NCBI RefSeq assembly: GCF_003991195.1
Contig: NZ_RCWL01000004.1
Coordinates: 1 to 64,000, forward strand
DNA length: 64,000 nt
Origin: Gynurincola endophyticus
GTDB taxonomy: Bacteria; Bacteroidota; Bacteroidia; Chitinophagales; Chitinophagaceae
Direction of reading: 5' to 3'
The translations under genes and the position numbers were made by a program. Position 1 is the stretch's first letter, and the number at the start of each line of letters is the position of its first letter. The notes beneath the pieces were generated by a model. It saw nothing but the letters and a program-made list of their open reading frames with translations. It was not told the DNA's origin and made no database searches. Positions 12,041-15,005 of the stretch are shown one piece after another.

Positions 12041-13507
12041 ATGCGATTGTTTTGCTCTTTTGTATTATTCATTTTTACTATTACTTTACTGGCATGCAAA
12101 AAAGATGAAGAAACACAGGTAGTTTCCGTTTCCTCCAACACAATTAACTTTGATGCTACCGGAGGAATGCAGGTTTTTGATATACAAACCAATGCTTCTT
12201 CATGGAATATCACTATTGAACCTGGTGGTGAATGGATTGAATTAAGTGCTTTGCAAGGATCCGGTAATAACTCGAATGTACAGGTAACCGCCTCCGAAAA
12301 TCCACTCCAAACAACCAGAACAGCTATTCTGAATATAAAAGCCGGCGATGCACTTCCGGTAAGAGTAACAATACAACAACAATCTTCTATCTACCCAAAC
12401 TATAATACGAATCCGATTGCAGCAGACATGACGGATATGAATAAAGACGCCACCGTGCTGGCGGCTGAAATGACCTTAGGCTGGAATCTGGGCAATACAC
12501 TGGAAGCCACCGGCGGAGAAACGGCCTGGGGCAATCCTGCTGCAACGATCGAACTGATTCAACGCGTTAAACAAAGCGGATTTAATGTGATCCGTTTACC
12601 CGCAGCATGGAATCAGTATGCAGATCAAACGACTGCCAAAATTAACATTACCTGGCTGAATCGCGTTAAACAAGTAGTTCAGTATTGTATAGACAATGAT
12701 CTCTATGTAATGTTGAATATACATTGGGACGGTGGCTGGCTTGAAAACAATTGTACGCCGGATAAAAAAGTAATGGTGAATGCTAAGCAAAAAGCTTTCT
12801 GGGAGCAGATTGCTACACATTTCCGTGACTTTGACCAACGGTTGTTATTTGCAGGAGCCAATGAACCAGCAGTGGAGAATGCAGAACAAATGGCCGTATT
12901 ATTGTCTTATCACCAAACATTTGTGAACGCTGTTCGCTCCACGGGTGGCAGAAATGCTTACCGTACTTTAATTGTTCAGGGGCCAACTACAGATATAGAA
13001 AAAACCAATCGTCTGATGAATGCATTGCCGGAAGATAAAGTAGCCCGACGCTTAATGGTAGAAGTACATTATTATACTCCCTGGAATTTTGCAGGGCTCA
13101 CCACTGACGAAACCTGGGGCAATCAATTCTACTACTGGGGCTACGGCAATCATTCTGTTACAGATCCATTACGCAACCCGACATGGGGCGAAGAGGCAAC
13201 TGTAGAAGCAGATTTCAAACTCATGAAACAAAAGTTCATTGATCAGAATATTCCGGTAATCATGGGAGAATACGGCGCACTTCGAAGAACCAACTTAACA
13301 GGAGACGCATTAGCCCTCCACCTTCAATCGAGAAACTATTATCTGAATTATGTTACAAAAAAGGCTATTTCCAATAAAATGATTCCTGTGTACTGGGATA
13401 ATGGTGTATTTGAAAACTCGGTTACCTTCGGTTTGATTAACCGTCAGAACAATACCGTAGCAGACCCTGACGCATTGAATGCAATGCTGACAGCCATACA
13501 ACCATAA
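12041..13507 (+). CDS. BACON-domain GH5 endoglucanase-like lipoprotein
   Basis: A 488-residue surface lipoprotein. The signal peptide ends in the lipobox LLAC, followed by KKDEE. Residues about 25-115 form a BACON domain (VSVSSNTINFDATGG, SWNITIEPGGEWI) and residues about 140-485 a glycoside hydrolase family 5 (cellulase-type) barrel. The catalytic acid/base is in FAGANEPA and the nucleophile Glu in VIMGEYGALRR; LGWNLGNTLEATGG is the typical GH5 start. It probably cleaves beta-1,4-glucans or related plant polysaccharides at the cell surface. No SusC/SusD pair is nearby, so it is not part of a classical polysaccharide utilisation locus. Confidence 0.88.
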   Translation: MRLFCSFVLFIFTITLLACKKDEETQVVSVSSNTINFDATGGMQVFDIQTNASSWNITIEPGGEWIELSALQGSGNNSNVQVTASENPLQTTRTAILNIKAGDALPVRVTIQQQSSIYPNYNTNPIAADMTDMNKDATVLAAEMTLGWNLGNTLEATGGETAWGNPAATIELIQRVKQSGFNVIRLPAAWNQYADQTTAKINITWLNRVKQVVQYCIDNDLYVMLNIHWDGGWLENNCTPDKKVMVNAKQKAFWEQIATHFRDFDQRLLFAGANEPAVENAEQMAVLLSYHQTFVNAVRSTGGRNAYRTLIVQGPTTDIEKTNRLMNALPEDKVARRLMVEVHYYTPWNFAGLTTDETWGNQFYYWGYGNHSVTDPLRNPTWGEEATVEADFKLMKQKFIDQNIPVIMGEYGALRRTNLTGDALALHLQSRNYYLNYVTKKAISNKMIPVYWDNGVFENSVTFGLINRQNNTVADPDALNAMLTAIQP

Positions 13508-13614: not shown

Positions 13615-13622
13615 TACCTTTG
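13615..13622 (+). promoter_or_regulatory. Candidate -7 promoter element of the tyrS leader
   Basis: TACCTTTG matches TAnnTTTG. It would start transcription close to 13628, directly before the leader-peptide ATG (13631) and about 165 bases before tyrS. No clear -33 element is seen. Confidence 0.4.
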
Positions 13623-13630
13623 CTTTGTCG

Positions 13631-13720
13631 ATGACAACTAACAAACACATATTACGTTTTCCTTTCTTCAATAATTATTATTTCCCGGCCACCGTTCGGG
13701 GAATCAATGTGTACTGTTAA
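13631..13720 (+). CDS. Tyr/Phe-rich leader peptide of tyrS (candidate)
   Basis: A 29-codon frame from ATG 13631 to TAA 13718-13720. Codons 10-18 read FPFFNNYYF, with consecutive TAT TAT at 13676-13681. The two Tyr codons end where the first arm of the leader hairpin begins (13681-13687). That is the placement expected if a ribosome waiting for tyrosyl-tRNA breaks this hairpin and frees 13694-13700 to pair with the terminator's 5' arm. The gene downstream is tyrosyl-tRNA synthetase, so the codon content matches the enzyme. Translation is unproven. It would be nearly leaderless if the promoter at 13615-13622 is real. Confidence 0.6.
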   Translation: MTTNKHILRFPFFNNYYFPATVRGINVYC

Positions 13721-13790
13721 TCACTCACCGTATATCATTTATTCAATATAATGAATGCCCGAACATCACAGTTCGGGCATTTTTATTTTT
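13681..13790 (+). promoter_or_regulatory. Transcription attenuator upstream of tyrS (candidate)
   Basis: Four pairing regions are visible. Region 1, TTTCCCG (13681-13687), pairs with CGGGGAA (13697-13703). Region 2, GTTCGGG (13694-13700), can instead pair with CCCGAAC (13758-13764). Region 3, ATGCCCGAAC (13755-13764), pairs perfectly over 10 bp with region 4, GTTCGGGCAT (13771-13780). A T-rich tract follows to 13790, seven bases before the tyrS ATG. Regions 2 and 4 share GTTCGGG, as in classical trp/phe attenuators. Inferred logic: charged tRNA-Tyr allows the terminator; ribosome stalling at the Tyr codons favours the antiterminator and tyrS expression. Confidence 0.6.
13755..13790 (+). terminator. 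Intrinsic terminator in the tyrS leader
   Basis: A 10-bp perfect stem (ATGCCCGAAC / GTTCGGGCAT) with a 6-nt loop, followed by TTTTATTTTT. It lies upstream of tyrS and downstream of the leader frame, so it would act as an attenuator rather than as an ordinary gene end. Confidence 0.8.
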
Positions 13791-13796
13791 ACTATC

Positions 13797-15005
13797 ATGG
13801 AACATACAAGCATTCTTAAACAAAACGTTGAAATCGTATTACCGGCTGACGGGCTGGAAAAAAAATTACAACAAGCTGCATCAGAAGGACGCAAGCTGAA
13901 AATTAAACTAGGATTTGATCCTACCGCACCGGATTTGCATCTCGGGCATGCCGTCGTATTGAAAAAACTAAAACAGTTTCAGGAGCTGGGACATGAAATC
14001 ATCATCATTGTTGGTAGTTTTACCGCCAGAATCGGCGACCCTACCGGCAAAAACAAAAGCCGTAAACCGTTAAGCAGCGAGGAAGTTCAACACAATGCCA
14101 ATACTTATATTAACCAGCTCTCAAAAGTGATTGATATAAATAAAACTACTATTTTGTTTAATGGCGACTGGTTAGATCAAATGAATTTTCCTGAAATTAT
14201 TCAGCTACTATCAAAGGTAACCGTCGCTCAATTGATGCACCGGAATGATTTCAACAAGAGATTTACAGAAAACACGCCCATTGCCCTGCACGAACTGGTA
14301 TACCCCATCCTGCAAGGCTTCGATTCTGTAAAGATTTCGTGTGATATCGAGATGGGCGGCACCGATCAGTTATTTAATTGTACTATGGGTAGGCAATTGC
14401 AGGAAAGCTTTAACCTGTCGCCTCAGATCGTGTTGTGCATGCCTTTGTTAAAAGGAACCGACGGAAAAGAAAAAATGAGCAAGTCTTTAAATAATATCAT
14501 CGGGCTCACCGATTCGCCCAACGAGATGTTTGGCAAAACCATGTCAATACCAGATACATTAATCAAGGAATTTATATACCTTACTACAGATTTTTCCATA
14601 CAGGATAAAGAGAAAATGAATAGATCCCTCCAACAAGGAGAAAACCCGATGACTGTTAAAAAGGAAATTGCAAAAAACATCATCCGTCAGTACCACTCTG
14701 TTGAAGCAGCAGAAGAAGCAGCTGCCTTTTTTCAGCATCAGTTTCAGAACAGGAATTTTGAGGAGAAACTATTCACCCCGGTACCACTGAATACTTTTAG
14801 TGCTACACAAAATGGTGAGCAGAACCTGTTGGATCTCTGCCATCAACTAAAACCAGCGCTGACCCGGTCGGCTGTCAGAAGGTTAATTCTGGGTGGAGGG
14901 ATACAGGTCAATGATACAAAAATAGTAGATCCGCTTGTAATGATAAAAATGGTGCACGGTATAAAAGTAAAGGTTGGGAAGAGAGATTTTTTTGAATTGG
15001 TTTAA
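13797..15005 (+). CDS. tyrS: Tyrosyl-tRNA synthetase
   Basis: A 402-residue class I aminoacyl-tRNA synthetase that charges tRNA-Tyr with tyrosine. It carries the HIGH-type motif in PTAPDLHLGHAVVLKKL (about residues 37-53), the KMSKS loop as KEKMSKSLNN (about 222-231) and a C-terminal S4 RNA-binding domain (about 335-402, LTRSAVRRLILGGG). Length and order match TyrZ-type bacterial enzymes. The frame is open to 13755, but that codon lies in the 5' arm of the leader terminator; the ATG at 13797, just after the T-tract, fits family N-termini. Expression is probably controlled by the attenuator described above. A strong terminator follows the gene. Confidence 0.95.
   Translation: MEHTSILKQNVEIVLPADGLEKKLQQAASEGRKLKIKLGFDPTAPDLHLGHAVVLKKLKQFQELGHEIIIIVGSFTARIGDPTGKNKSRKPLSSEEVQHNANTYINQLSKVIDINKTTILFNGDWLDQMNFPEIIQLLSKVTVAQLMHRNDFNKRFTENTPIALHELVYPILQGFDSVKISCDIEMGGTDQLFNCTMGRQLQESFNLSPQIVLCMPLLKGTDGKEKMSKSLNNIIGLTDSPNEMFGKTMSIPDTLIKEFIYLTTDFSIQDKEKMNRSLQQGENPMTVKKEIAKNIIRQYHSVEAAEEAAAFFQHQFQNRNFEEKLFTPVPLNTFSATQNGEQNLLDLCHQLKPALTRSAVRRLILGGGIQVNDTKIVDPLVMIKMVHGIKVKVGKRDFFELV

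Follow-up and report, generated by a model that had tools for sequence, protein, structure and literature searches.

A predicted leader-peptide attenuator with a conserved leader peptide upstream of an accessory tyrosyl-tRNA synthetase gene in Bacteroidota

The stretch of DNA analysed in this study, referred to throughout as the window, comprises 64,000 nucleotides of a Gynurincola endophyticus contig (NZ_RCWL01000004.1), and the features considered here lie within and immediately before a gene encoding a tyrosyl-tRNA synthetase (TyrRS), as listed in Table 1. The sequence described earlier at 13615-13799 was confirmed base for base, and the leader frame of 29 codons with two adjacent tyrosine codons claimed in the original prediction was recovered at the same coordinates, its stop codon occupying 13718-13720. 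Between the leader and tyrS lies a terminator hairpin with a perfect 10-bp core (13755-13764 with 13771-13780), which the scanner counts as 12 pairs with the weak closing pairs included, followed by the T-tract TTTTATTTTT. Hairpin and T-tract were thus found as predicted, except that six bases, not seven, separate the end of the T-tract from the tyrS ATG. An ATG at 13755, within the terminator hairpin and in frame with tyrS, would add 14 residues (MPEHHSSGIFIFTI) to the protein; it is probably a chance occurrence, since it is absent from the five relatives checked. The upstream neighbour (12041-13507) encodes a GH5 cellulase with a BACON domain and has no evident tie to tyrS.

Table 1. Features of the leader region and the accessory tyrS gene in the window.
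Feature	Position	Strand	Basis
Predicted Bacteroidota -7 promoter element, TACCTTTG	13615..13622	+	Sequence; consensus TAnnTTTG (PMC7366714)
Leader peptide gene, 29 codons, MTTNKHILRFPFFNNYYFPATVRGINVYC	13631..13720	+	Homologous leader at 86/86 accessory tyrS loci
Conserved nascent-peptide part, codons 1-15 (family MKxLNxILRLPFFSx)	13631..13675	+	pN/pS; residue and codon tables
Control codons TAT TAT (codons 16-17), predicted stall site	13676..13681	+	Tyr at both in 86/86 loci
Protector hairpin 1:2 (13680-13688 with 13696-13704)	13680..13704	+	MFE -9.5 kcal/mol, 75-nt leader
Segment 2, GTTCGGG, antiterminator 5' strand	13694..13700	+	Spacing from Tyr codons; covariation with terminator 5' arm
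Terminator hairpin (scan); segment 3 CCCGAAC 13758-13764, segment 4 GTTCGGG 13771-13777	13753..13782	+	Scan; 50-locus alignment
Terminator T-tract	13781..13790	+	Sequence
Accessory tyrosyl-tRNA synthetase gene, KMSKS type, 402 aa	13797..15005	+	TIGR00234, PF00579 and S4

The product of the gene is a tyrosine--tRNA ligase by its match to TIGR00234 (E 7e-99), its PF00579 and S4 domains and its nearest solved chains, which are themselves tyrosine--tRNA ligases. A second, more ordinary TyrS is encoded on another contig of the same genome (G000:C30:168389-169564); it is 28% identical to the window enzyme, and KFGKT is read from its sequence where the window enzyme has the KMSKS motif. Enzymes of the window type were detected in 3 of 159 genomes of the family, own genome counted (E <= 1e-100), in 2 of 249 genomes drawn from the order (E <= 1e-100) and in 1 of 395 drawn from the class (E <= 1e-80), while all 14 of the genomes tested for both types possess both, the partner being 57-74% identical to the housekeeping TyrS. 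Because so few genomes hold the window type and all 14 carriers also have a housekeeping TyrS, the window tyrS encodes an accessory TyrRS with a patchy distribution, not the housekeeping enzyme. A search of plasmids found neither an accessory-type tyrS (best match 48% identity) nor the leader. The neighbouring genes vary beyond genus-level synteny, which marks the leader and tyrS as a conserved unit; no partner gene accompanies it, and the neighbourhood hence offers no functional clue. In a tree built without an outgroup, the TyrRS of another genome of the same family (L004) clusters with that of Telluribacter (L106, Spirosomataceae) with support 96/66, which suggests acquisition by horizontal transfer. 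Most of the deep forks of the accessory TyrRS tree lack resolution.

To follow the leader across relatives, we scanned 84,980 species genomes, which yielded 80 loci that are 66-73% identical and which, together with five relatives found earlier and the window itself, gave a set of 86 accessory tyrS loci, including Chryseobacterium, Flavobacterium, Gelidibacter, Empedobacter, Runella and others. For alignment, we kept a non-redundant subset of 50 loci whose identity across 600 nt of tyrS stayed below 85%. The same leader precedes tyrS at every one of the 86 loci, always starting exactly five codons before an I/L/V-L-R/Q-x-P-F/Y-F motif (with variants such as PYF, LLR and VLR, and in some cases an upstream frame extension of the ORF), and ranges in length from 24 to 37 codons. 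Conservation of the tyrosine codons in relatives, one of the checks proposed with the original prediction, proved complete, with Tyr at codons 16 and 17 throughout the set. Within the non-redundant subset, the first control codon, codon 16 (13676-13678 in the window), shows a strict bias, being TAT in all 50 loci, and codon 17 is TAT or TAC (37:13).

The leader is closely tied to the accessory gene. It is absent from all 27 relatives of the housekeeping type (L008-L034), which belong to other classes and share 42-48% identity, and in twelve genomes it occurs once per genome, at the accessory tyrS, apart from two matches at chance level (E 0.19 and 0.35). A looser leader pattern applied to 395 genomes of the phylum gave matches at about the background rate, and the true leader could be recognised among them only at the accessory tyrS of three genomes (G000, G563 and G617). 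By these comparisons the leader-tyrS element is a widespread module in Bacteroidota, which, like the accessory status of the enzyme, the original prediction had not seen.

A terminator hairpin with a T-rich tail stands directly before tyrS in each of the 50 non-redundant loci, and in their alignment 98% of the terminator cells are paired, with four pairs altered on both sides and 40 double-change cells; the distance from the terminator stem to the tyrS start is 14-25 nt in 48 of the 50. In the window, the alternative pairing of 13694-13700 with 13758-13764 proposed originally was borne out as a duplex of -14.3 kcal/mol, and its CCCGAAC strand belongs to both structures, being the 3' strand of the antiterminator and part of the 5' arm of the terminator. 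Across the alignment, standard pairs make up 89.5% of the cells of the antiterminator helix. Covariation of the arms, also proposed as a check, is clearest at pair 68-159, which is U-A in 28 loci and C-G in 22 with no exceptions, a split that in part reflects two lineages, so that independent events number fewer than 22. The covariation score of the helix was 0.217, compared with 0.140 in shuffles, and none of 500 shuffles, nor any slid version of the helix, scored as high. The duplex was also better than at least 95% of shuffled segments in 45 of the 50 loci, with a mean of -12.7 kcal/mol for cognate segments against -6.4 kcal/mol for shuffled ones; one locus, L088, is an exception that lacks a standard segment 2.

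The spacing of segment 2 from the tyrosine codons is fixed: it begins 12, 13 or 15 nt past the second of them in all 50 loci. Given the usual size of the ribosome footprint, this start lies just past the leading edge of a ribosome standing at the tyrosine codons, and segment 1 of the window is predicted to lie under such a waiting ribosome. The first hairpin is more variable. When the first 75 nt of the window leader were folded, a single hairpin was obtained (Table 1), which contains the leader hairpin of the original prediction (13681-13687 with 13697-13703). A 1:2 hairpin of the form CCCCG...CGGGA is the RNAalifold consensus of 22 Chryseobacterium-like loci, while in 18 Flavobacteriaceae-like loci the consensus has the segment 2 region pairing with parts of codons 9-17, among them the tyrosine codons. 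For codons 7-15, no clear synonymous covariation with segment 2 emerged (median p 0.40). Where leaders are longer, their stop codon falls 26-39 nt past segment 2; a ribosome halted at that stop would leave segment 2 uncovered, and termination there would have to rely on the 1:2 hairpin. By these folding models, the protector hairpin likely exists as a part of the switch. Some Flavobacteriaceae-like loci, L052, L078 and L108 among them, have further peculiarities: the tyrosine codons serve as the 5' side of a hairpin (UAUUAUU...AAUAAUA), and further tyrosine codons occur after segment 2 (GYAYNSTYS, GYVYTS).

Upstream of the leader, a match to the Bacteroidota -7 box (at least 5 of 6 bases) is present in 83 of the 86 loci, compared with 20% of random 30-nt stretches, and in 82 of these 83 only 4-9 nt separate the end of the box from the leader start. 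If transcription begins a short way downstream of this box, which is what its designation '-7' suggests, a nearly leaderless leader mRNA is expected. Such mRNAs are uncommon in Bacteroidota: 5' UTRs shorter than 10 nt make up 3.7% in Bacteroides thetaiotaomicron (PMC7366714), and leaderless transcripts are put at 5.5% in a study of Flavobacterium psychrophilum (PMC9723704).

Taken together, the leader ORF with cognate control codons, the intrinsic terminator between leader and gene, and the antiterminator that excludes this terminator point to a ribosome-mediated transcription attenuator controlling the accessory TyrRS gene, a reading to which we assign a probability of about 0.85. The tyrosine attenuator originally proposed for tyrS is thus supported well beyond the window, by the leader at all 86 accessory loci and the terminator at all 50 non-redundant ones. 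In the mechanism we envisage, transcription would start no more than a few bases from the leader ATG, and translation of the leader would begin immediately. If charged Tyr-tRNA were short, either for want of tyrosine or because the housekeeping TyrRS is blocked, the translating ribosome would wait at codons 16-17 and cover segment 1; segment 2, just past the ribosome edge, could then pair with the emerging segment 3, so that the terminator would be blocked and tyrS transcribed. With Tyr-tRNA plentiful, the ribosome would move on, segment 2 would be covered or re-paired with segment 1, and the terminator would form and stop transcription before tyrS. The conserved nascent chain may tune or strengthen the stall. 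Tyrosine shortage would thus most likely raise tyrS expression; what the switch senses, and which way it responds, are deduced from the arrangement of these parts. Several points count against the attenuator: the 1:2 hairpin takes different forms in the Chryseobacterium-like and the Flavobacteriaceae-like groups, with no clear synonymous covariation of codon choice; the distant stop codon of the longer leaders puts segment 2 out of reach of a ribosome parked there; L088 departs from the usual segment 2; and two or three adjacent control codons are few for a purely codon-based sensor.

The original prediction called the attenuator classical, which understates the case, as strong purifying selection also acts on the peptide upstream of the tyrosine codons. 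At codons 2-15, pS is 0.68 and pN is 0.15, a ratio of 0.22 (0.11 in the larger group, group A), whereas leader codons 18-26 give a pN/pS of 1.0; sixty codons of tyrS give 0.11. These values indicate that codons 2-15 of the leader peptide are under purifying selection. The family peptide, MKxLNxILRLPFFSxYY, is conserved up to the two tyrosine codons, where conservation ends. Pro11 is invariant while all four of its codons are used, Leu8 and Arg9 are invariant in the 50-locus set with three codons each, and at Leu4 at least five codons are in use and the residue hardly varies. The window leader is the most divergent member at codons 2-5, departing from the family at codons 2, 4 and 5.

Classical leaders need only their control codons, yet here the peptide is conserved, which makes a contribution of the nascent chain to stalling a live possibility. 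Residues conserved up to the predicted stall site and free after it form the pattern expected of an arrest peptide, without proving one. Stalling might accordingly be brought about mainly by the nascent MKxLNxILRLPFFSx chain in the tunnel, with the tyrosine codons as the slow step and with a signal that would be either Tyr-tRNA shortage, to which the peptide would lend a sharper response, or a different ligand or a drug. Selection on codons 2-15 that stops at the tyrosine codons while synonymous sites are near saturation, and the constancy of Pro11 and Leu4 in spite of their many codons, speak for such a switch, as does a comparison with the Salmonella his attenuator, whose authors state that leader-peptide structure has no bearing on their assay (PMC4046918), whereas here the peptide outside the control codons is under purifying selection. 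The invariant tyrosine codons and the TyrRS product point instead to Tyr-tRNA as the signal, some of the conserved codons lie within pairing regions so that RNA constraint may contribute, and the window member deviates at three of the conserved positions; on balance we hold an arrest-peptide switch to be possible but unlikely. Somewhat less probable still is that codons 2-15 are conserved not for the peptide but through constraint on the RNA or on initiation of a near-leaderless mRNA, the element being otherwise a plain attenuator. The ability of codons 9-15 to pair with segment 2 in many loci and the closeness of the -7 box to the start codon would fit this; however, the nucleotides vary freely while the residues do not, and with synonymous change near saturation, RNA constraint is unlikely to be the whole answer. 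A combination of arrest peptide and codon-based attenuator can be put forward tentatively, as a conjecture we would not favour at present: the conserved 15-residue chain would prime the ribosome so that two tyrosine codons suffice to sense Tyr-tRNA, on a near-leaderless transcript, in a mobile, self-regulated leader-tyrS unit that stands in when the housekeeping enzyme fails or is inhibited.

Two further explanations would do away with the ribosome-mediated attenuator altogether. The short ORF could encode a small protein in its own right and end in a terminator of its own, tyrS being expressed separately or by plain readthrough. Conservation of the N-terminal part of the peptide would agree with this, but the C-terminal half is unconstrained, the length of the ORF varies widely, the antiterminator covaries with the terminator, the ORF accompanies only the accessory tyrS in the twelve genomes, and the short distance between terminator stem and tyrS start leaves little space for a second promoter; we therefore consider this very improbable. 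If a T-box or some other known riboswitch preceded tyrS, as is the case in Firmicutes, there would be a precedent in Bacillus subtilis, whose accessory TyrRS gene tyrZ is described as being under T-box and MarR regulation (PMC9437257). No Rfam family matched the window or six further loci at the gathering threshold, and E <= 1 returned only sub-threshold noise, so that this explanation retains next to no plausibility.

The attenuator reading finds several parallels among known systems. A 2010 paper by Vecchione and Sello (cited in PMC4787780) reportedly described an auxiliary, antibiotic-resistant tryptophanyl-tRNA synthetase (TrpRS) gene under ribosome-mediated attenuation. That system, reportedly from Streptomyces and connected with indolmycin, likewise combines a spare aminoacyl-tRNA synthetase with a leader-peptide attenuator that carries codons for its own amino acid; here the amino acid is Tyr and not Trp, the phylum is Bacteroidota and not Actinobacteria, and conservation of the leader peptide extends past the control codons. 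With the trp, his and pheST attenuators of Proteobacteria, the locus shares a leader ORF with control codons, the 1:2, 2:3 and 3:4 alternatives and an intrinsic terminator, although the near-leaderless leader mRNA predicted here sets it apart from these classical cases. The B. subtilis tyrZ gene resembles the window tyrS in encoding an accessory TyrRS beside TyrS, with expression expected to rise with uncharged tRNA-Tyr, but its sensor is a T-box RNA that binds the tRNA directly, whereas the sensor predicted here is a translating ribosome.

Duplicated synthetase genes with leader-peptide attenuators are also known from the hisS/hisZ genes of bacilli (PMC2965389), there with His codons and in Firmicutes; the text of that survey mentions neither Bacteroidota nor tyrS. 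Closer in phylogeny, leader-peptide attenuators of the same general mechanism have been proposed in F. psychrophilum, of the same phylum, where they lie upstream of amino-acid biosynthesis operons, and the main text of that report contains no tRNA synthetase case (PMC9723704). A literature search, confined to open-access sources, found no description of tyrS attenuation in Bacteroidota. Sequence comparison appears to place a conserved attenuator of known mechanism on an unexpected gene, and the conservation of its nascent peptide is a feature that known amino-acid attenuators do not need.

Through this comparative evidence, Bacteroidota gain a documented case of an aminoacyl-tRNA synthetase gene with a leader-peptide attenuator. 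One and the same task, inducing a spare TyrRS as Tyr-tRNA becomes scarce, apparently falls to a T-box in Bacillus and to the ribosome here, and the 86 natural variants offer a clean case for asking whether the nascent chain joins codon-based attenuation. A spare TyrRS may also allow these bacteria to survive TyrRS inhibitors. In Chryseobacterium sp. E1 (L048; CP078104.1, G980:C1:1028486-1029672), the housekeeping TyrS is split over two overlapping frames, which match residues 3-245 and 244-392 of the query. The split is either a frameshift or an assembly error; if it is real, the accessory TyrRS would be the sole intact TyrRS of that strain.
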